In this document: piece after piece, positions 6,694 through 58,672 of the stretch
Layout: each line of letters starts with the position of its first letter
How positions within the stretch are numbered: position 1 is the stretch's first letter
NCBI GenBank assembly: GCA_022823725.1
Contig: JAJEHL010000049.1
Location: 372,001 to 436,000 of the forward strand
DNA: 64,000 bases
Source of the DNA: Candidatus Latescibacterota bacterium
GTDB lineage: Bacteria; Latescibacterota; UBA2968
Direction: 5' to 3'
Program-made: the position numbers and the translations under genes
The notes under the pieces: generated by a model
Told to the model about the DNA's origin: nothing
The model's database searches: none
Seen by the model: the letters and a program-made list of their open reading frames with translations, nothing else

Positions 6694-7977
6694 CTAAGCC
6701 GTAAAAGCGTTTTCGTAGTGGCGGATGGCAGGGCGCGATTGTGTCAGGTCAATGGCGATGACATCAAATCGCGGTGCCGCGTGGTCGGGGTGTTGTCGCA
6801 GGTAGGCTTTTGCGACTTTGATGATTTGCGCTTGTTTGGCAGGTGTTACTCTGGTTTCTGGTTGTCCAAAATGTGGGGTGGTCGCGGTTTTGACTTCGAC
6901 GAAGACCAGGGCGTCGTTTTTCACCGCAATGAGGTCGATTTCACCGCCCAGGGCGCGAAATCCGCGCGCGCGAATGCTATATCCTTTTTGTTCTATAAAT
7001 TTTTCTGCCAATTGTTCGCCTTTGGGACCGGATTGTTGCAGGCGAGTGCGTTGTTTGCGAAATAGCAGGCGCAGGGCCTGGACCTCATCCTGTGGGATAT
7101 GTTTGCTGGCACTGGCAATGGTATTTCCTATGGCTTGAAGTTGGTCGAGGTTCATCGCCGCGCGAATGCCTTCGGCAAATATTTTAAAGTCTTCAGAACT
7201 CCTGGCTTCAAAGACACCCCGGAAAGATTGGCGGTGGATGGGACAGGGGCCGTGTTTTTGCAAGGCGGCGAGGTGATCGGCGCTGCCGTATCCCTTGTGA
7301 CTGGCAAAGCCGTAAGCGGGGTATTGCGCGTGGTAATCGATCATCAGACGATCGCGCGTTACTTTGGCGATGACAGACGCGGCGGCTATAGAAAGCGACT
7401 TCCGGTCACCGCCTATAACCGATTGTTCGGGAAATGGACTGCCCGGGAGGGCATTGCCGTCGATGAGTACGCGGTTGGGCGAGATGTTGAGGGCGGCGAG
7501 TGCCTCGCACATGGCATGGTGGGTGGCGTTGCGGATGTTGTATTTGTCTATTTCCTGTGGAGATGCTTGGCCTACACCAATGGCGAGGGCTGTATTGTGG
7601 ATGATTTCAAAAAGTTCTGCTCTGCGTTTTTCGGATAGTGCTTTGGAGTCGTTCAAGCCGGGGATGAGTGTATCTGGCGGGAGGATAACCGCTGCGGCGA
7701 CAACGGGACCCGCGAGGGGACCTCGTCCGGCTTCATCTACGCCTGCGATGTGCTGGATGCCCCGTTCTCTGAGTTTTTTTTCTATGGTGAGCATTTGTTC
7801 GAGGCGCGCTTTTTCACGTGCCTGTGCTTTTTGTTTTTTTCTCACCTGTTCTGCGATTGCGCGAACACCGGTGCGGGTGTCCTGTTCGAGGGCGAGGAGG
7901 TATGCTTCGTCAGGGCGATTGACAGATTTGATGTGGGCGCGAATTTGTGCGATGGTCATTGTGGAGAGATTTTTCAT
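6694..7977 (-). CDS. rnhB: Fusion protein: ribonuclease HII + YraN (UPF0102) nuclease-like domain
   Basis: RNase HII: IAGVDEAGRGPLAGPVVAAAV, GGDRKSLSIAAASVIAKVTRD. C-terminal: KGEQLAEKFIEQKGYSIRARGFRALGGEIDLIAVKNDALVFVEVKTA (YraN). One uninterrupted frame. Confidence 0.92.
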   Translation of the reverse strand: MKNLSTMTIAQIRAHIKSVNRPDEAYLLALEQDTRTGVRAIAEQVRKKQKAQAREKARLEQMLTIEKKLRERGIQHIAGVDEAGRGPLAGPVVAAAVILPPDTLIPGLNDSKALSEKRRAELFEIIHNTALAIGVGQASPQEIDKYNIRNATHHAMCEALAALNISPNRVLIDGNALPGSPFPEQSVIGGDRKSLSIAAASVIAKVTRDRLMIDYHAQYPAYGFASHKGYGSADHLAALQKHGPCPIHRQSFRGVFEARSSEDFKIFAEGIRAAMNLDQLQAIGNTIASASKHIPQDEVQALRLLFRKQRTRLQQSGPKGEQLAEKFIEQKGYSIRARGFRALGGEIDLIAVKNDALVFVEVKTATTPHFGQPETRVTPAKQAQIIKVAKAYLRQHPDHAAPRFDVIAIDLTQSRPAIRHYENAFTA

Positions 7978-8144: not shown

Positions 8145-9920
8145 ATGGCAGAAGAGAGCAATACTGACAAGCTGCGCAAGCTCGCGCATTTTGTCACCCC
8201 TTACAAATCGCGCTTGATTTTGCTGTTTTGTCTGACAGCGACAATGACGACATTGGGCATGCTGCCCCCTCTGGTGATGAAGTTCATTATCGATGATGTC
8301 ATTACCCTGGGCAACTGGCAGTTGCTGGAAATGCTTCTGTTTATATCGATTTGTCTGCCTATCACGTCCGCTGCAATGCGCGTTTGGGTCTCATTCACCA
8401 ATGCCTATGTGGGATGGGGCGTGACGACGTTTATGCGGAAGCACACGTATGAATATATGTTGAAATTGCCCATGCGCTTTTACGATGAGATGGGTACGGG
8501 CAAGATTATGTCGCGCATTATGTCTGATATTGCGAGTGTGCGCAGTATGGTGACGTCGCGCATGCTGGGCATTCTCGTTGATTTTGTGTCGTTCTGGGTG
8601 GCACTTGTGCTGTGTATGAGCTTGAATTGGAAGATGGGGTGTTTGCTGCTTTTGCTGATGCCCCTGTATTTTTTTAATTATTACGGGTGGCGCACGCCAA
8701 TGCGGGAGTCGTTCAGTCTCTGGCGCAGGAAGATGGACCAGGTGTCGGTTGGGCTACAAGAGCGGTTGGCCGGGGTGCAACTGGTGAAATCTTATGGAAG
8801 AGAGCGCAGAGAACACCGCTCTTTTGCGGAAGATACGCACCAGAGTTTGGATGCTGCGATGCAGACTGCTGTACATCGCGCTGGCTATATGGCGGGGTCT
8901 TGGGGGGTGTCGGGATTGCGCAATACGGTGATTTTTTGTTTGGGTTGTTATTATGTGATTGAAGGTGAGATGACTTATGGGGCTGTGATGGCCTTTTTTT
9001 CTTATTCCAGCCGAATGTTTCAGCCGATTCTCAATCTCACGCAAATTGCCATGCGCCTTCAAGCCGTGATGGTGTCTGTGGATCGCGTTTTGGAAATTTT
9101 AGATTTTCCCATAGAGATTGAGGACAAGGAGGATGCCGTTGATTTGCCGCCGATAAAAGGGCATATCAAATTTGAAGATGTGCATTTTGAGTACAAAGAG
9201 GATGAGCCGGTTTTGAAGGGGATCAACCTGGAGGTGCAGCCGGGGCAGATGGTGGCGTTGGTGGGGCATACGGGATGCGGCAAGACGACGTTGACGAGTT
9301 TGTTGATGCGCTTTTACGATGTGAAGAAAGGGCGTATTATCATTGATGGCCACGATATGCGAGATGTGAAGTTGCGTACCTTGCGCACGCAGATCGGACA
9401 GGTGTTGCAGGATTCAGTGATGCTGGATGGGACGATTCGGGAGAATTTGCTGTATGGGCGGGCAGATGCCACAGATGCCGAGTTGATCGAAGCAGCGCGG
9501 ATTGCCGAGATTCACGAATTTATTATGCGTACGCCCGAGGGATATGATTCGATGTTGGGGAAAGATGGCATTAAGCTGTCTGTGGGAGAGAAACAGCGCC
9601 TCGCCATTGCGAGAGCCGTGTTGACCAATCCGTCAGTTTTAATTCTCGATGAGGCGACTTCGTCGCTCGATTCCCTGTCGGAAGCTCTGATACAAAAAGC
9701 GATGACCAGGGTGTTAGAGGGGCGCACATCTTTTGCGATCGCACACCGATTATCGACGATCGTCAATGCGGATATTATTGTTGTGATGGATCAAGGCGAG
9801 ATTGTGGAACAGGGAACGCACAGCGAATTGTTGCAAATACCCGATGGAAGGTATCGCCAGCTTTACGAACAGCAGGCTGCGGGTTCTATTGAAGAGGCTG
9901 TAGAGGCGATGGCGAACTGA
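8145..9920 (+). CDS. ABC transporter, permease-ATPase half exporter (canonical Walker B, divergent signature)
   Basis: Walker A GHTGCGKTT; Walker B VLILDEATSSLDS; signature LSVGEKQR. Confidence 0.93.
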   Translation: MAEESNTDKLRKLAHFVTPYKSRLILLFCLTATMTTLGMLPPLVMKFIIDDVITLGNWQLLEMLLFISICLPITSAAMRVWVSFTNAYVGWGVTTFMRKHTYEYMLKLPMRFYDEMGTGKIMSRIMSDIASVRSMVTSRMLGILVDFVSFWVALVLCMSLNWKMGCLLLLLMPLYFFNYYGWRTPMRESFSLWRRKMDQVSVGLQERLAGVQLVKSYGRERREHRSFAEDTHQSLDAAMQTAVHRAGYMAGSWGVSGLRNTVIFCLGCYYVIEGEMTYGAVMAFFSYSSRMFQPILNLTQIAMRLQAVMVSVDRVLEILDFPIEIEDKEDAVDLPPIKGHIKFEDVHFEYKEDEPVLKGINLEVQPGQMVALVGHTGCGKTTLTSLLMRFYDVKKGRIIIDGHDMRDVKLRTLRTQIGQVLQDSVMLDGTIRENLLYGRADATDAELIEAARIAEIHEFIMRTPEGYDSMLGKDGIKLSVGEKQRLAIARAVLTNPSVLILDEATSSLDSLSEALIQKAMTRVLEGRTSFAIAHRLSTIVNADIIVVMDQGEIVEQGTHSELLQIPDGRYRQLYEQQAAGSIEEAVEAMAN

Positions 9921-37463: not shown

Positions 37464-37568
37464 GGCTGGCTCTTTTTTCTGATGGTAGGGTGAGTTGACG
37501 TTATATTATACTGAAGCATTTCAGTTGTCAAAGACAAATAGATGGTTTACCAGAGGAGGAGTGGTGAG

Positions 37569-38468
37569 ATGGATAAAATTGGATTTGTCGGTTTGGGGAT
37601 TATGGGCAAGCCTATGTGCCACAATCTATTGAAGGCTGGTTTTGATGTGACGTTTTATGCGCGGCGGGACGAGATTGTGGCCGAGATGGAGGGTGCGGGG
37701 GCGACTTTTGTGCCTTCGTCACAGGCGGTGGGCGAGGCAGCGGATATTATTGTTACGATTGTGACGGCTGATCCCGAGGTGCGCGAGGTCATTTTGGGCG
37801 ATGAGGGCGTTTTGGCCGGGGCGTCTGATGGCGATCTCATTGTGGATATGAGCACGATTTCGCCGTTGACGATTCAAGATGTGGCAGAACAGGCATCGCA
37901 AAAAGGGGTTCGCGTGATGGATGCGCCGGTAAGCGGTGGCGATATTGGGGCGATTAACGGTACGCTGACTATTATTGCGGGCGGGGCAAAGGCCGATTTT
38001 GATCGTTGTGAGGGGATTTTTGATGCGATGGGTAATAGTGAGAATATTTTTCATGTGGGGGATGTTGGCGTGGGGCAAACGGTTAAAATTGTCAATCAGT
38101 TGCTCGGCGGTATTACGATGGCGGCGATTGCAGAGGGGCTTACATTGGGTGTTAAAGCGGGTGCTGATCCCGAGGTGATGCGGCAGGTGATTAGCGTGAG
38201 TTCGGGCAATTCGTCGGCTTTTCAGGCGCGCGTCGCGGATTTTGTGTTTAAGGATGAGTACGCACCGGGGTTTATGCTCGATTTGATGAAGAAGGATATC
38301 GGTATCGGCGTGGAGATGGGGCGCGCGATGAATGTGCCCGTGCCCCTGGGAGCCGTGGCTTATCAAATGTATGCGGCCGCCAGTAGCCTGGGTGCTGGCG
38401 CACTCGATTTTTCAGCCGTGACAAAGACTATTGAGACGCTGTCTGGTATCAAGATCAGCGATGCATGA
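37569..38468 (+). CDS. NAD(P)-dependent beta-hydroxyacid dehydrogenase (2-hydroxy-3-oxopropionate reductase-like)
   Basis: IGFVGLGIMGKPMCHNLLKAGF, DAPVSGGDIGAINGTLTIIAGG, VKIVNQLLGG. Confidence 0.93.
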   Translation: MDKIGFVGLGIMGKPMCHNLLKAGFDVTFYARRDEIVAEMEGAGATFVPSSQAVGEAADIIVTIVTADPEVREVILGDEGVLAGASDGDLIVDMSTISPLTIQDVAEQASQKGVRVMDAPVSGGDIGAINGTLTIIAGGAKADFDRCEGIFDAMGNSENIFHVGDVGVGQTVKIVNQLLGGITMAAIAEGLTLGVKAGADPEVMRQVISVSSGNSSAFQARVADFVFKDEYAPGFMLDLMKKDIGIGVEMGRAMNVPVPLGAVAYQMYAAASSLGAGALDFSAVTKTIETLSGIKISDA

Positions 38469-38577
38469 GTGATTACTCCCAACGATAGAGCATTTGGGAC
38501 TTACGGGCTATTTAAAGACTGGACAGGAGGCACTGTCTTAATTATTTTTTTCAAATAAGAGAGAAGAGCTTTGGTAA

Positions 38578-38865
38578 ATGAAACGATATGAAATCCCTTA
38601 TCCGGTTTCTGCTTATACCTTTCCTCACGAAGCCCTTATTCATCAGGTGCGTTTTGATGATGTGTATATTCATATCGAATTAACGGATGGGCGTATTCTT
38701 TCGGTGCCTCTGAAATGGATTCCGACGCTTTATCACGCATCGTCCGATGAACGCGAAAAGTATGAGATCTCTCCAGGCCGCACAGAACTCTTATGGGATC
38801 CAGATAAGTGTGCTATTAACGATGAACTCCGTATTGTGGACTATCTCGGTTCTGGTAGAGAATGA
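38578..38865 (+). CDS. DUF2442-like small protein
   Basis: VRFDDVYIHIELTDGRILSVPLKWIPTLYHASSDEREKYEISPGRTELLWDPDKCAINDELRIVDYL. Confidence 0.65.
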   Translation: MKRYEIPYPVSAYTFPHEALIHQVRFDDVYIHIELTDGRILSVPLKWIPTLYHASSDEREKYEISPGRTELLWDPDKCAINDELRIVDYLGSGRE

Positions 38866-38883
38866 AAGTGAAGAGAGGGTGTT

Positions 38884-39834
38884 TTGCGTAGATTCATACA
38901 GGCTGTTTCAGAACGCAGCCAAAGGGCATTTGTCTTTCTTGTAGAAGAAGTTGGCATGTCCCGGTATATTGCGTTCTTCGCTGGTGTGGTCATCGTCTTT
39001 GGACTTTTGTACAGGTACCTTACTCCTCAAGGTAACGGTATCGGACAAAATTCCACACCGCTTTCCGATGTTACATTTCTTGAAAGCATATATTTCAGTA
39101 TCATCACTATCTCCTCTTTGGGATACGGCGACATGCATCCGATGGGATACTCAAAAGCATTCGCCTGTATAGAAGTCCTTATGGGACTTGCGATGATAGG
39201 CATCATGATCGCTAAAGTGACTTCGCGCCGCCTGTCATATTATGTTTCGCGTCTTTTCAGTTTCGATGCCCAAAAACGTCTTGACGATATCGCCGCAAAA
39301 TTCGATGTTTCTTATGGCGATTTTGAAGAAATAATGGCCTATCAGACGCCTGCAGAAGATAAGAGCACATCTATCCCCCGCTTTCGGGAAATTATCAATG
39401 CATTCCAATTAAGATGTGCCGCATTGTGTGATTACTTTTCAGACGAAATGGCGCAAAGCAACTACTTCCATATTGCGCCAGTCGGCGCAGTCCTGGGAGT
39501 TGGTAATGCCGTTGACCGCGCATTTTTTCGACTTGCCCAACTCATCACGGGATTGTCTGGACAAGCGAGAGATGAAATACTTGATGGACGTACCAGACAA
39601 AGAATTTCTGATGCAATTGACTCACAAAAAAAGGTTTGCGACCTGGTTCGGAAAAATGCGAATGATCAGGGCACGTTAGCTATATTCGAGCGCATTAAGG
39701 AGATCTGTGAAAATCTACCAGAAAGTTATTACGAGATTCCCGAAGAAGAAGAACAGCCCAACCAAGTCCTACAAGGCTCTGACGAACCACAAGAATTTTC
39801 GGAGGTAGAAAATGAGCATACCGATTCCCCCTAA
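38884..39834 (+). CDS. 2-TM potassium-type ion channel with alpha-helical C-terminal cytoplasmic domain
   Basis: TM1 YIAFFAGVVIVFGLLYRYL; pore TFLESIYFSIITISSLGYGDMHPMGY; TM2 VLMGLAMIGIMIAKV; about 200-aa C-terminus without a visible RCK Rossmann motif. TTG start. Confidence 0.82.
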   Translation: MRRFIQAVSERSQRAFVFLVEEVGMSRYIAFFAGVVIVFGLLYRYLTPQGNGIGQNSTPLSDVTFLESIYFSIITISSLGYGDMHPMGYSKAFACIEVLMGLAMIGIMIAKVTSRRLSYYVSRLFSFDAQKRLDDIAAKFDVSYGDFEEIMAYQTPAEDKSTSIPRFREIINAFQLRCAALCDYFSDEMAQSNYFHIAPVGAVLGVGNAVDRAFFRLAQLITGLSGQARDEILDGRTRQRISDAIDSQKKVCDLVRKNANDQGTLAIFERIKEICENLPESYYEIPEEEEQPNQVLQGSDEPQEFSEVENEHTDSP

Positions 39835-40195
39835 GGAGGCACTATCATTGCACCTGAACTGGACAAGGTGTGAAGGCAATGTCTGGTGCACGCTGAATTC
39901 TGTAAACTTGGAACACAAGCATTTCAATAATATGCAGGGCGTTTATATAATTTGGCATGGAGGTACTAAACCTTGGGCGGTGTACATTGGTCAAGGAGAT
40001 ATTAAAGAACGCATAGCCGCACATCGAAAAGATCTAGGTATTCAGAAATATGAACATATGGGACTTTATGTAACTTGGGCAACAGTACAGGAGGATTTCC
40101 GCGATGGTGTGGAGGCATATTTGGCGGATATATGGACTCCGAAAGTCGGCAACCATCCTCAAGTTCCTCGTATAGAAGTGAACTCGCCATGGTAG
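39812..40195 (+). CDS. GIY-YIG nuclease-like protein (divergent)
   Basis: GVYIIWHGGTKPWAVYIGQGDIKERIAAHRKD (GIY...YIG...R) and VEAYLADIWTPKVGN (Glu...Asn); RBS GGAGG 5 nt upstream of the ATG inside the channel gene. Confidence 0.7.
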   Translation: MSIPIPPKEALSLHLNWTRCEGNVWCTLNSVNLEHKHFNNMQGVYIIWHGGTKPWAVYIGQGDIKERIAAHRKDLGIQKYEHMGLYVTWATVQEDFRDGVEAYLADIWTPKVGNHPQVPRIEVNSPW

Positions 40196-40326
40196 TTATT
40201 GCAAACGAGTGCTTGAGTAGATTTGGGCAGGAGTAATGTGATCTGACCGTATGCCCGTTCACTAAATACAGGCAGTAGAAAGTAAGTATTTGACCAAAGT
40301 TGATTTTAATGCGTTAGAGGAGTAGT

Positions 40327-40440
40327 ATGAGATCATTTTTTATTATGACCGGCATAGCTTTGATCGTGGTTTTGGCTGGCTTTCTTTATAGTGCCATTGC
40401 ATCTCGTCGTCTTAAGCGAAAATATAAAGATAGCGAATAG
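40327..40440 (+). CDS. 37-aa single-TM small membrane protein (below ORF-track cutoff)
   Basis: gaggagtagtATG; MRSFFIMTGIALIVVLAGFLYSAIASRRLKRKYKDSE*: one hydrophobic helix followed by a basic tail. Confidence 0.5.
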   Translation: MRSFFIMTGIALIVVLAGFLYSAIASRRLKRKYKDSE

Positions 40441-40541
40441 GCAGGAGGTTAATCTGCATAATCTCGCTCGTCTATAATCGTTTTGTCATTTTTTGTTAAT
40501 GTGGTAAGTCTGTATTCACCCGTTTATTCAGGAGAAATAGT

Positions 40542-41717
40542 ATGTCTGAGAATAAGTCTTCGGATGATTCCCAATTTGAACCCGATTTTGAAGCTTACGA
40601 AAAAGCGTATGATGAAGCTTTTACGAACGAAAGCAAAAAGTTCGAGGAAATCAAGAAGCAAAAATTAATTATGGCAATGTATGGTAGCGTGAATAGCGGC
40701 AAGTCTACCACTATCAATGCACTGACTGGTCGCAAACTGGCCGATGTAAAGGCTGTAGCAGGTTACACAAAAGAAATCCAGCTATATTCATTTAGCAAAG
40801 ATGTCTATATCACCGACACGCCAGGATTGGAGGACATTAACGAAGAGAACAGTGCCCGAGCAAAAGAATTTGTTGAAAAAGATACCGACATAATCCTTTT
40901 CTTTTTAAATGCAGGTGTCGGTGCGTCAAAGCCTACGGTTGATGCATATAATGAATTACAAGACTTAGGTAAACCAATCATTGCTGTGCTCAATAAGATC
41001 GACATTCTCACCCTTGATGAACAAGAAGAAATGGAACAGGATATAAAAGACAAGATGGGAGTTAAGGTTGTGCCTATCTCCGCTCGTAACAATACCGGCA
41101 TTGATGTTTTGCAACGAAATATAGTGGAGATTTTAGAGTCTGTGGGAAAGGAATTGCTATATTTAAAAGTTTCAAAATATAAAGACGAACAAGTAGATAA
41201 ATGGATAACAGGCGCAGCAATTAGCGCTGCGGGGCTTGGTGCAATTCCCATACCCGGTGCGGATATGATCCCATTAACTGCACTGCAAGTTGGTCTTGCA
41301 ATGAAAATAGCGTTTATCTATGAATGCGAAGTGACCAAAAAGGATGTGATGCAATTGGTTGCCGCTACAGTAACGGGAACGATTGGACGACAAATCTATC
41401 GTTGGGGCATTCAAGGCTTGAAGGCGGCGGGATTGCTTGGCGGGCCTATCAGTGAAGTTCCTGTTATGGCCGTAGCCGCCGCCGTTGCGGCATCGGTTAC
41501 CTATGGATTTGGTCATGCGTGCAAAGAATATTACAAAAGTGGAATGACGCTTGATCTGGATGGAGTAGGTGAGATATTCCGCAATATGGCAAAGCAGTAT
41601 CACAGCCAAACATCATCAGAAGATTCGCCACAGGACTCGCCACTAAAGCGGCTTGGGAACTGGTGGCAGAGGAAGGATCATGGAGCGACAACCAAAGAAC
41701 CCATTTCATCCGGGTGA
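40542..41717 (+). CDS. Era-like GTPase with C-terminal hydrophobic DUF697-like domain
   Basis: G1 GSVNSGKST, G3 DTPGLED, G4 NKID; C-terminal ITGAAISAAGLGAIPIPGADMIPLTALQVGLAMKIAFIYECEVTKKDVMQLVAATVTGTIG. Confidence 0.87.
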   Translation: MSENKSSDDSQFEPDFEAYEKAYDEAFTNESKKFEEIKKQKLIMAMYGSVNSGKSTTINALTGRKLADVKAVAGYTKEIQLYSFSKDVYITDTPGLEDINEENSARAKEFVEKDTDIILFFLNAGVGASKPTVDAYNELQDLGKPIIAVLNKIDILTLDEQEEMEQDIKDKMGVKVVPISARNNTGIDVLQRNIVEILESVGKELLYLKVSKYKDEQVDKWITGAAISAAGLGAIPIPGADMIPLTALQVGLAMKIAFIYECEVTKKDVMQLVAATVTGTIGRQIYRWGIQGLKAAGLLGGPISEVPVMAVAAAVAASVTYGFGHACKEYYKSGMTLDLDGVGEIFRNMAKQYHSQTSSEDSPQDSPLKRLGNWWQRKDHGATTKEPISSG

Positions 41718-41949
41718 AATGCTTCTCGAAGAATTTCTCGAACCTATGGGTATGAGCCAGACGGCGTTTGCAGAGAAAATCGGTTGGACCCGAGCGCGAC
41801 TCAGCGCGCTTATTCGAGGCGAGCGAGGCGTAACTGCTGATGTAGCACTCGATCTTGCCGAGACTTTGGGAACTTCGGCCAGGCTTTGGATGAATATGCA
41901 AGCGACTTATGATCTGGACAAAGCCGCGAAGGCAAGACATGTCGCTTAG
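41680..41949 (+). CDS. HigA-family addiction module antitoxin-like HTH protein
   Basis: NPFHPGEMLLEEFLEPMGMSQTAFAEKIGWTRARLSALIRGERGVTADVALDLAETLGTSARLWMNMQATYDL; overlaps the GTPase 3' end by 38 bp. Confidence 0.9.
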   Translation: MERQPKNPFHPGEMLLEEFLEPMGMSQTAFAEKIGWTRARLSALIRGERGVTADVALDLAETLGTSARLWMNMQATYDLDKAAKARHVA

Positions 41950-42014
41950 TTGTTTTGATGACAAATTTTGAAAAATGTATTTCTGATAAAAACAAACCAT
42001 TACAGGAGGAATAA

Positions 42015-44315
42015 ATGGCGATTTCACAGGAAGATTATCTGGGTATTACGGATTACAAGGTCGTGGGGACGCGGCCCGTGCGGCACGATGGTGCAGATAA
42101 GGTGACGGGCAGGGCGATTTATGGTACGGATCTCAATTTGCCCGATATGTTGCATGCCAGAGTTTTGCGAAGCCCGCATGCACACGCCCGGGTTAAGTCG
42201 ATTGATACGGGCAAGGCCGAAGCGCTTGAAGGTGTGCGCGCAGTGGTTACGGGGCAGGATTTGGCACTCAATGCCGAGGAGCAGTTGGCCGATTTGGGCG
42301 AAGAGGTGGTGCGGGTTAAGGATATGTGTGCTGCAGTGCTGGCACGCGAAAAGGTGCTCTATCAGGGGTATCCCGTGGCGGCGGTGGCGGCGACCAATAT
42401 CCATATTGCCGAAGAAGCCTTGGATCTGATTGAGGTGGAATACGAGGTGTTGCCCCATGTGCTGGATGTGCGGGAGGCGATGAAGGATGGTGCGCCTCTG
42501 GTGCATGAAGATCAGAGAACCAATTCGATGGGTGAGAGGAGCGAAAATTTCAGCAATATAGCGTCGCATTTTCGCACGGAATTGGGCGATATTGAGCAGG
42601 GATTTTCCGAGTCGGATGTGGTTGTCGAGCGCGAGTTTCTCACGGATATGGTGCATCAGGGCTATATCGAACCGCAAAATGCCACGGTGTTGTGGAATGC
42701 CGATGACGTGGTGACGATCTGGTGTAGCAATCAGGGCGCGTTTGGCGTGCGGGATCAGACCGCGAGGATTTTGGGTATTCCCGTGTCGCAAATTAAGGTT
42801 GTACCCCTGGAGATCGGCGGGGGATTTGGCGGGAAGATCAAAGCGTATTTGGAACCGATTGCCGCGCTGTTGTCGAGGAAGACCGGGCATCCGGTGAAAA
42901 TGATTATGACCCGCACCGAGGTCTTGCAGGCGACCGGCCCGACGTCGGGATCGTGGATTCGAGTGAAGATGGGCGCGACCAATGACGGCAAGCTCGTCGC
43001 TGCAGAGAGCGAATTGGTTTATGAAGCCGGGGCTTTTTCCGGCAGTCCCGTGGGCGCAGGGGCGCGCAATATGCTGGCGCCTTATGTTATTCCGCATGTT
43101 CTGGTCGATGGTTATGATGTGGTGAACAACAAGCCTTCCTCTTCGGCCTATCGCGCGCCGGGCACGACGAATGCGGCTTTTGCCGTTGAAACCGTGGTGG
43201 ATGAACTCGCCGAAAAATTGGGGGTTGATCCGCTGGAGTTTCGGTTGAACAATTCTGCAAAAGAAGGCACGCGCCGCGCAGATGGTCCCGTGAATAAGCG
43301 CATTGGACACGAGGAATGCGTTCGCGCTGCGGTCTCTTCTGACCACTATCAGGCGGCACTTGATGGGAAATATCGCGGTCGCGGTGTGGCGTCTGGTTTC
43401 TGGGGCAATGGTGGCGGTGTTTCGAGTGCTGCTGCGAGTGTGAATGACGATGGGACGATCAATCTGGTGGAAGGTTCGACAGATATTGGCGGCACGCGCA
43501 CATCGGTTGCGATGCAGATGGCCGAGGTGCTGGGTATTTCAGAACAGGAGATCCGCCCGCAGGTGGGCGATACGGATTCGATTGGCTATACGGGCGTGAC
43601 GGGTGGTTCTCGCACGACATTTGCGACGGGTTGGGCGGCTTATAAGTGCGCGCAGGATATCAAAGAGCAGATGATGGCGCGTGCGGCGATCCTGTGGGAG
43701 ATTTCTGAGGATGATGTCGAGTTCGATCAGGGGGTTTTCCAATCGAAGTCCGATCCATCGAAGTCGATTACGTTTAAGGATTTGGCTGCCAAGCTCGATT
43801 CAACGGGCGGACCGGTGATGGGACGCGCCACGGCAAAACCCACAGGTGTTGGCGGTGCTTATGCGGTGGCGATTGTGGATGTGGAGGTCGATCCCGATAC
43901 GGGCAAGGTCGATATTTTGCGCGCATCTATTTTCCAGGATGCGGGGAAAGCGATTTATCCGCCTTATGTGGAGGGGCAGATGCAAGGTGGCGTGGCGCAG
44001 GCGATTGGTTGGGCGCTCAACGAAGAGTATGTGTACGATGAAGATGGCATTTTGCGGAATAGCAGTTTGTTGGATTATCGGATGCCGACGTGTTTGGATT
44101 TGCCGATGATTGATGCGCATATTGTCGAGGTTCCCAATCCGGGGCATCCCTATGGTGTACGCGGGGTGGGTGAGGTGCCGATTGTACCGCCCACGGCAGC
44201 GGTTGCCAATGCGATTTACGATGCGATTGGTCTGCGTCTGACCGAGTTGCCCATGTCGCCTCCGCGGGTATTGGAAGCATGGTGGGATAAAAATGGTGGG
44301 AACGGCTCGGCCTGA
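42015..44315 (+). CDS. Xanthine dehydrogenase/CO dehydrogenase-type molybdopterin-binding large subunit
   Basis: GGGFGGKIKAYLEPIAALLSRKTGHPVKM, AYRAPGTTNAAFAVETVVDELAEKLGVDPLEFRLNN, YGVRGVGEVPIVPP (putative catalytic Glu). Confidence 0.94.
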   Translation: MAISQEDYLGITDYKVVGTRPVRHDGADKVTGRAIYGTDLNLPDMLHARVLRSPHAHARVKSIDTGKAEALEGVRAVVTGQDLALNAEEQLADLGEEVVRVKDMCAAVLAREKVLYQGYPVAAVAATNIHIAEEALDLIEVEYEVLPHVLDVREAMKDGAPLVHEDQRTNSMGERSENFSNIASHFRTELGDIEQGFSESDVVVEREFLTDMVHQGYIEPQNATVLWNADDVVTIWCSNQGAFGVRDQTARILGIPVSQIKVVPLEIGGGFGGKIKAYLEPIAALLSRKTGHPVKMIMTRTEVLQATGPTSGSWIRVKMGATNDGKLVAAESELVYEAGAFSGSPVGAGARNMLAPYVIPHVLVDGYDVVNNKPSSSAYRAPGTTNAAFAVETVVDELAEKLGVDPLEFRLNNSAKEGTRRADGPVNKRIGHEECVRAAVSSDHYQAALDGKYRGRGVASGFWGNGGGVSSAAASVNDDGTINLVEGSTDIGGTRTSVAMQMAEVLGISEQEIRPQVGDTDSIGYTGVTGGSRTTFATGWAAYKCAQDIKEQMMARAAILWEISEDDVEFDQGVFQSKSDPSKSITFKDLAAKLDSTGGPVMGRATAKPTGVGGAYAVAIVDVEVDPDTGKVDILRASIFQDAGKAIYPPYVEGQMQGGVAQAIGWALNEEYVYDEDGILRNSSLLDYRMPTCLDLPMIDAHIVEVPNPGHPYGVRGVGEVPIVPPTAAVANAIYDAIGLRLTELPMSPPRVLEAWWDKNGGNGSA

Positions 44316-56530: not shown

Positions 56531-58672
56531 TCAGTGTCCATCGGTGGTTACAATTTTCAGTTGCTTAATCGTTGTTTCTACAGGTACAAGAGAGGCGGAT
56601 ATATCAGGGAGATTCTCTATTTGGACTGAAACGCGCTGGTCTTTTAGGAGGAAAAAAAAGGCGTCCATTTGAGCGAAGTGCTCTGTTGGGATGAATATTT
56701 GTTGTGTTAAGAGTGCCTGGTCCGCAAAGATTGAAACCCTGATACTCGCATGTTCGCGGAATGCGCTCAGGCGTTTTACTGTGATTCTCGTTTCGTATTC
56801 TCCAAAGGCAAAGCTTTGTGATCGCTCTGGTGTCGCAGGTTTTTTTGCTTGAAATGTGAACAGGTATTTTCCGGGTTTCAGGTCATAAGTCGGGGTTGTT
56901 ATGACGCCTTCGCGAAGTGTTGCGGTATTGCGGATGTTGATTTGTACGCCTGTGGGAGATAGCTTGCAGGTGTCAAATGCAATAGTGCCGGGGTGCAACG
57001 GTTCGTGCGGTATCTGATTTGCGATGATCAGCGAGGGACTTGTGGAAAATACATCGAGCATGGTTGCGGCATTTTGTTTGATGTAACCTTTTCCAATATT
57101 TTGTTCGATATAATTGTTCTCGATGTATTGCAGAATATGCTCGTCGGAGATTTTGTCGATGATTGCCTGTTTTGTCTGTATTTCCTCATTGTGATAAGTG
57201 TAAATTTGAGATACTTCGGCTGGCAAGACATAGTGTGTGCGGTCTCGATTTTGTTCCGCGCTCATTATTTCAATGGGTTGTATCGCATAGTCGTATTTTA
57301 ATCTGTCGAGGTCTTGTTCGTGAATACGCAGTTCTCTGGCAAAGACGATTTTTTGCACATCTTCCATCGCGTTGAGCGTATCTATGACTGCGCTTCTGGT
57401 ATCTCTGGTGTTGTGCAATACCCAGCCCGTTTGATAGGCGTCATAGGCGTGCGGTAGTAAAATGAGCGAGGCTGCGAGACATATAATCGGAATTGATTTT
57501 TTGAGCTTTGGATAAAAGTGTACCAATGCCACATGCAGATTGTGAAAAGCAACACCTGCAAAAACGGCGATAAATGGGTACACCTGTATAAAATTGCGGT
57601 GGAAATTGACGGTCATGTCGCTCATAAATAAAAGATAGATCACGGGAAATAATATGATCAGGAGCAATATCGGTCGGGAAATTGTCCCCGCCAGACCGAT
57701 TGCAAACAGGATGGTGCCGGTTAGTCCGATGTTCTGGTAAAATTCTCGTATTTGAAACGCAAAATAATCCCATCCAGGGCTGATTGTGGCGCCTGGGTGT
57801 CCCGTAGTTTTGTAGTATGTAATTTGATGTAAAATGTCTTTGATAAAAGTTGGGAAGTCGAGAATTGCATAGGGCATGATGAGGAAGAAAGTCACCGTGG
57901 GTAGGCAGGGGATCGCGAGCCAGTAAAATTTTTGGCGTGGAATTTTATCCCGATAGGACATCCAGGTCAGCGATGCAATGGGGAGCAAAATTGCGAGGCC
58001 CGAATTGTATTTTGTCGCTGTGGCAAATCCTACGCATATTAAGCTAAAGATGAAATAGATGATTTTTTTTTGGTCGATGAACAAAATGGAGAATAGGGCG
58101 GCAAGCGAGACAAATAGGGCGACTGGTGCGTCCATTGTTACAAAACCCGAATGAACTATGTGGATCGATAGAACAGATAAAAAAAGGGCCGATATGATGC
58201 CCGTCCATCTGTTGCATATCGTCTTGCTGATTAAATAGGTGATAAATACTGTTGCGGTACCCATTGTGGCAGTCAAAAGACGATTCCAAAAATAAAAGTT
58301 CGGATGAGATATCGTCCAGTGCCAGCCAGTATCGGCTGCAATGCGTATGTTTGCTAAGCTTGACAAATTGCCTGTGAATGAGAGATAAATACGGTATAAC
58401 TGATCAACTAACAGATTTAAATAAATCATCAGAGAACCGTACTTAAAAAAATGGGGGTTGTAATCCCCCGTTTTCATTATCTGAAGCGCGTTGCTGGCCG
58501 TAAGTGGTTCATCCCAAAAATACAAATAGGGCAAACCGATGTTTAATTGGAAATATCGAAAGATAAATGCAAAGAAGATGACGAGGAGGATGATAGATGT
58601 GAAATAGTGCTTCACTATCGCAGGGAGGATAACGGGAAAATTGGCTTTAACGGACGCGAGAAAATCACCCAT
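56531..58672 (-). CDS. Glycosyltransferase family 39-like multi-pass membrane protein
   Basis: YFWDEPLTASNALQIMKTGDYNPHFFKYGSLMIYLN (catalytic D/E loop-like) and many TM helices. Confidence 0.85.
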   Translation of the reverse strand: MGDFLASVKANFPVILPAIVKHYFTSIILLVIFFAFIFRYFQLNIGLPYLYFWDEPLTASNALQIMKTGDYNPHFFKYGSLMIYLNLLVDQLYRIYLSFTGNLSSLANIRIAADTGWHWTISHPNFYFWNRLLTATMGTATVFITYLISKTICNRWTGIISALFLSVLSIHIVHSGFVTMDAPVALFVSLAALFSILFIDQKKIIYFIFSLICVGFATATKYNSGLAILLPIASLTWMSYRDKIPRQKFYWLAIPCLPTVTFFLIMPYAILDFPTFIKDILHQITYYKTTGHPGATISPGWDYFAFQIREFYQNIGLTGTILFAIGLAGTISRPILLLIILFPVIYLLFMSDMTVNFHRNFIQVYPFIAVFAGVAFHNLHVALVHFYPKLKKSIPIICLAASLILLPHAYDAYQTGWVLHNTRDTRSAVIDTLNAMEDVQKIVFARELRIHEQDLDRLKYDYAIQPIEIMSAEQNRDRTHYVLPAEVSQIYTYHNEEIQTKQAIIDKISDEHILQYIENNYIEQNIGKGYIKQNAATMLDVFSTSPSLIIANQIPHEPLHPGTIAFDTCKLSPTGVQINIRNTATLREGVITTPTYDLKPGKYLFTFQAKKPATPERSQSFAFGEYETRITVKRLSAFREHASIRVSIFADQALLTQQIFIPTEHFAQMDAFFFLLKDQRVSVQIENLPDISASLVPVETTIKQLKIVTTDGH

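Follow-up and report, generated by a model that had tools for sequence, protein, structure and literature searches.

Six genes read from the same strand lie between two metabolic genes of a Latescibacterota genome (5.34 Mb, 98% complete), and the question raised by this locus is whether they form one system or are separate genes sharing a site. A sequence-only reading of the window (the whole stretch of 64,000 nucleotides analysed here) had proposed the former, namely an accessory module of a DUF2442 protein, a K+ channel, a GIY-YIG protein, a mini membrane peptide, a GTPase with a DUF697 domain and a HigA regulator, in which the GTPase would gate the channel under HigA control. All six ORFs are indeed present on the plus strand, between a NAD-binding 3-hydroxyisobutyrate-dehydrogenase-type gene (37542-38468) on the left and a molybdopterin-binding xanthine-dehydrogenase-type gene (42015-44315) on the right, and the assignments of DUF2442, the K+ channel, GTPase/DUF697 and HigA correspond to real domain matches in Pfam and NCBIfam. 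The accessory insert spans 38552..41999 (+), its approximate junctions being based on five sister genomes in which the site is empty. Its A/T-richness relative to the flanks, noticed by eye, was borne out: the 3.39-kb island has a GC content of 0.440, whereas the window averages 0.516 (sd 0.027), and it ranks second lowest among 122 stretches of this length; GC3 is 0.34-0.42 in the first five island genes and 0.48 in higA, the mean being 0.56; the insert is therefore compositionally foreign. Another compositional outlier, a low-GC (0.434) gene at 56531-58672 (-), encodes a 713-aa protein that by eye looks like a multi-TM glycosyltransferase.

The interval between the two metabolic genes was compared in 11 Latescibacterota genomes of one genus (G000-G010), i.e., the window genome and its ten genus mates, all ten of which possess the orthologous right-hand gene. 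The site is empty in five of the 11 (G001, G003, G004, G005 and G010), with about 85-104 nt between the metabolic genes, which agrees with the earlier view of the locus as accessory; it is an A/T-rich, laterally acquired insert of conflict-type genes. The full gene set is present in G000 and G002, and in two other genomes (G006 and G009) the DUF4160-DUF2442 pair stands alone at the site; since the 3' tail of higA (GTCGCTTAG...) is still present there, these two seem to have arisen from a larger island by deletion. In G007 the island is decayed, the channel (hereafter Kch) having lost its N-terminal part and the GTPase being cut down to its C-terminal end. The remaining genome, G008, has the order DUF2442 stub, Kch, the GIY-YIG-like protein (hereafter GIY), a DarT-macrodomain fusion (PF14487, 3.7e-41), which occupies the slot of the GTPase, and HigA. 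One site in one genus thus shows gain, swap and loss of conflict genes. DarT and DarG are usually encoded by separate genes; in G008 (L014:9386-10546) DarT and a DarG-type macrodomain are joined in a single 386-aa protein. The GIY gene of G007 (L080:5133-5651) is broken by an insert of ~130 bp that contains a stop codon and is bordered on either side by CTAG; it may be a small mobile repeat.

Were all six genes one system, with a membrane GTPase gating the channel and the nuclease under HigA control, this would account for the full set in G000 and G002 and its remnant in G007, as well as for contig L009, where the same components occur in a different order (GTPase-HigA-Kch-GIY-DUF4160). However, the latter contig is only 2.7 kb long, and its bin and taxonomy are therefore uncertain; Kch and GIY occur without the GTPase at four other loci (G008, L010, L011 and L012), in G001 the peptide and the GTPase are encoded on another contig, with neither the channel nor HigA, and DUF2442 is pseudogenised. 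Since the GTPase is separable from Kch-GIY, and HigA has no HigB, gating of the channel by the GTPase under HigA control is unlikely, and a single six-gene system is highly improbable. As to the co-occurrence of the genes, it holds for the channel and GIY, adjacent at all eight of their loci, but not for the GTPase, the peptide and DUF2442. Judging by gene content across the genus, the six genes are a patchwork inserted between two metabolic genes, not one machine. The locus is best explained as an accessory site of the chromosome in which separable conflict-type genes have gathered, with a mobile two-gene Kch-GIY cassette as its core and with the GTPase, the small peptide, HigA and DUF2442 as neighbours of this cassette and not its required parts.

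The first of these neighbours, the DUF2442 gene (38578..38865, +; PF10387, 1.6e-12), is an orphan DhiA-like antitoxin relic. DUF4160 and DUF2442 constitute the validated toxin-antitoxin system DhiTA (PMC8198452), and intact pairs occupy the same site in G006 and G009, whereas in the window no DUF4160 toxin gene adjoins DUF2442; by its domain content and context, the latter is the leftover antitoxin half of such a pair. It has an internal stop in G002, owing to which its dN/dS of 0.80 (G000 v G002) is not interpretable, and is reduced to stubs in G007 and G008. The 37-aa single-TM peptide with a basic tail (40327..40440, +) is kept upstream of the GTPase in three genomes (G000, G002 and G001), and, in line with the sequence-only reading, is probably a real gene, because it has three homologues and a dN/dS of about 0.10 (G000 v G002). 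The GTPase itself (40542..41717, +) is Era/Der-like, with a membrane DUF697 domain (PF01926, 3.5e-18; PF05128, 5.7e-10) and intact G1/G3/G4 motifs; it has no match in plasmid or phage collections and no relative in viral contigs. The peptide and GTPase/DUF697 travel independently of Kch-GIY. On contig C24 of G001 (L082:9053-10327) a DUF1232 protein, a HEPN-like protein and an IS3-type transposase are encoded near them. A LeoABC/dynamin-like defence GTPase was considered and rejected, as the LeoA profile aligned only over 45-191 of 559 and the NCBIfam score was 34 bits against a cut-off of 325. The last gene encodes a solitary HigA-type regulator (41680..41949, +; TIGR02607, 1.5e-29) and overlaps the GTPase gene by 38 nt, in G002 too. 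A HigBA toxin-antitoxin system was likewise rejected: HigA overlaps the GTPase instead of adjoining a HigB, and none of the nine HigB-like matches in the genome (eight above the cut-off) lies on its contig, C46.

As for the core of the locus, Kch and GIY adjoin at all eight loci holding this channel family, one of them decayed. These are G000, G002, G008, G007 (decayed) and a second Latescibacterota genus (L010 = G061), and, outside Latescibacterota, a Phycisphaerae MAG (L011), a Nitrospira MAG (L012) and a Gammaproteobacteria MAG (L009); within its own family, the channel was never found apart from GIY. The pair is rare (few matches in 85,462 species genomes), which limits the evolutionary tests. 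The distance matrices of Kch and GIY are correlated (Mantel r 0.82, p 0.0014; 7 pairs, all 5040 permutations), and on the strength of these comparisons the two are co-inherited and move as a unit. Between G000 and G002, dS reaches 0.80 for Kch and 0.70 for GIY, in comparison with 0.16-0.35 for the flanks and the other island genes, with dN/dS of 0.28 and 0.25, respectively, as is characteristic of purifying selection; the high dS combined with low dN/dS implies that a divergent functional allele of Kch-GIY was swapped in as a unit. Diversifying selection was ruled out, dS being also high and dN/dS about 0.25-0.28.

In L010, Kch-GIY is the entire insert and is flanked on both sides by the beginning of a lipoprotein gene, the first 98 nt of which are duplicated with 97% identity; in sister genomes this 5' end is single copy at this place. 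The duplicated stretches are at 7766-7909 and 9332-9429, and the family of this lipoprotein gene reaches about a dozen members in a single genome. An MNT-HEPN pair (PF05168, 1.6e-19) is located directly upstream of Kch-GIY in L010, and the other conflict-type genes near the cassette are DarT-DarG (G008), DUF4160-DUF2442 and HigA; in L011 and L012 it is surrounded by ordinary genes. No transposase, terminal repeats or common target sequence were found at the Kch-GIY insertion sites, and a transposon or homing-endonuclease origin was rejected for want of these and of an insertion sequence in common. That the pair inserts at unrelated sites without any transposase, and that lone GIY relatives occur in viral contigs, could be taken to mean that GIY is a homing-type endonuclease moving the cassette with the channel as cargo. 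Yet GIY is a bare 115-aa domain devoid of the DNA-binding part carried by homing enzymes, there is no intron or intein, the insertion sites have no sequence in common, and the phage relatives of GIY have no channel, all of which makes such a role very unlikely.

Kch (38884..39834, +; Ion_trans_2, PF07885, 5e-14, above the cut-off) is a two-TM potassium channel with the filter SLGYGD. It consists of an N-terminal amphipathic helix, TM1, a pore helix, the SLGYGDMHP filter, which is invariant in the family alignment, TM2, a helical cytosolic domain (about residues 120-277) continuing from TM2, and a disordered tail. In its structure model, which is of modest confidence (pLDDT 74, 7 sequences), only the pore clearly matches PDB entries, namely KirBac and KcsA. 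With these channels Kch shares the 2TM pore with a GYG filter; it differs from them in that the Ig-like domain of Kir or the bundle of KcsA is replaced by the helical cytosolic domain, which has no clear PDB match and appears to be new. The conserved C-terminal tail (QPNQVLQGSDEPQ in the window) is disordered in the model and contains the motif QP[ND]QxLQx[ST]DEPQ in most members; its conservation with synonymous codon changes suggests a docking peptide. In L010 the tail is lost through an early stop. The channel has no match in the plasmid collection and no relative among viral contigs. A canonical K+ filter, the ordinary neighbours of some cassettes and the mere commonness of K+ channels, other Ion_trans_2-type matches being present in many relatives, would also suit an ordinary channel of K+ homeostasis or osmotic function that moves together with a GIY-YIG gene of unrelated function. 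However, the adjacency to GIY, fixed at all loci, the rarity of the pair among species genomes, its patchy presence with empty sites and its decay in G007 make us consider such an ordinary channel unlikely.

The GIY-YIG assignment of the second protein was upheld by its fold, but not by its sequence profile, which is below the Pfam cut-off (best sequence match E 0.046). In the AlphaFold model (pLDDT 90) the best fold matches are UvrC GIY-YIG domains (probability 0.93-1.0; TM 0.65 on target for UvrC), followed by CMoRE/PD-T4-3. The GVY motif, Arg67, His71 and Asn124 are kept in 13/13 GIY relatives, the conserved residues also include Y45, and the catalytic Glu101 is kept in 12 of the 13, being replaced by Gly in G008; with the motif, Arg/Glu/Asn and the predicted alpha/beta fold, the protein can be placed in the GIY-YIG superfamily. 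The second (YIG) Tyr is replaced by Arg in 4/13 relatives, and this substitution, along with that of Glu in G008, indicates that nuclease activity may be dispensable. The gene (39848..40195, +; 115 aa) most likely starts at TTG 39848, although its ORF reaches up to ATG 39812: in most relatives GIY starts at an ATG directly before [Q/A/G]LNW, the window equivalent of which is this TTG, and a Shine-Dalgarno sequence AAGGAGG with the right spacing for it overlaps the channel stop codon. Thus, of the two gene overlaps proposed earlier, that of the GTPase and HigA is real, but that of the channel and GIY is probably a start-codon artefact; translational coupling of the latter two genes is likely. 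No match to GIY was found in phage or plasmid collections; relatives at 43-51% without the channel are present in viral contigs and other bacteria. In 398 Phycisphaerae-class, 295 Nitrospirota and 369 Gammaproteobacteria-class genomes the GIY profile was very rare, and its additional matches, where inspected, had no Kch. The channel association is therefore specific to one GIY subfamily, and the GIY domain is not always in need of a channel. In G059 (L087:1510-2244) the gene after that of a more distant GIY relative encodes a 119-aa protein that by eye is two-TM and differs from a K+ channel; this may be another pairing of a GIY with a membrane protein.

The anatomy of Kch-GIY is thus well supported, and from it we infer how the pair might act. 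GIY would dock on the channel, perhaps at the conserved tail QPDQxLQxTDEPQ, and sense, close to the membrane, nucleic acid that is foreign or abnormal; it could then open the channel, and the resulting collapse of K+ and membrane potential would abort the infection, or else it could be released or activated as a nuclease. The pair has the look of a bipartite defence or self-poisoning device not described before, and it is possible, though doubtful, that GIY, as a nucleic-acid sensor or nuclease, and a K+-selective channel are coupled physically into a new anti-phage or addiction system. Two small coupled genes, mobile, co-inherited and found amid toxin-antitoxin genes, might also be a toxin-antitoxin pair persisting through addiction, in which GIY would be the antidote or repressor that binds a toxic, K+-leaking channel, or in which, the other way round, a toxic GIY nuclease would be sequestered by the channel; reversed roles of the latter kind have a precedent in Butters gp30/gp31, where the membrane partner sequesters its toxic partner (PMC12894663). 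But the channel gene comes before the GIY gene, the pair has no DNA-binding regulator, and the catalytic residues of GIY are mostly kept, which is odd for a pure antidote, so that we regard a toxin-antitoxin pair as rather unlikely.

Scans with PADLOC, PHROGs and NCBIfam gave no system matching the Kch-GIY pair, none of the PDB entries searched describes a channel with a GIY-YIG protein, and no such pair was found by a literature search for channel and GIY-YIG defence; the pairing appears to be new, the component folds being already known. With UvrC and CMoRE (PD-T4-3), GIY shares the fold and most catalytic positions (PMC12923530), while being a stand-alone, Trp-rich 115-aa domain with no fused sensing domain and, as compared with UvrC, with His at the position of Tyr43. 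SNIPE (PD-lambda-1) cleaves phage DNA while it is being injected, by means of a GIY-YIG nuclease domain tied to the inner membrane (PMC13190303), as GIY would be through the channel; however, SNIPE unites this domain with one TM helix and DUF4041 in the same polypeptide, whereas Kch and GIY are two proteins encoded by separate genes, with a K+ pore and without a DUF4041 match in either. RexAB consists of two genes, one for a cytosolic protein that binds nucleic acid and one for an ion-channel effector in the membrane, and its DNA-binding sensor opens the channel (PMC12894663). Like RexAB of lambda and of P. putida P1, Kch-GIY combines a soluble protein with a membrane channel in two genes; it differs in having a true K+ channel and a GIY-YIG domain as the soluble partner, and neither protein showed homology to RexA or RexB in Pfam, PADLOC and NCBIfam scans. 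By analogy with these systems, we lean, tentatively, towards Kch-GIY being a RexAB-like device with a SNIPE-like partner, a mobile membrane conflict module. If this is true, the pair links DNA recognition at the membrane directly to the loss of K+ and membrane potential, and a mobile K+ channel with a DNA-type enzyme would be a compact model of how nucleic-acid sensing is connected to membrane depolarisation, as has been suggested for RexAB, where this connection is still poorly understood.
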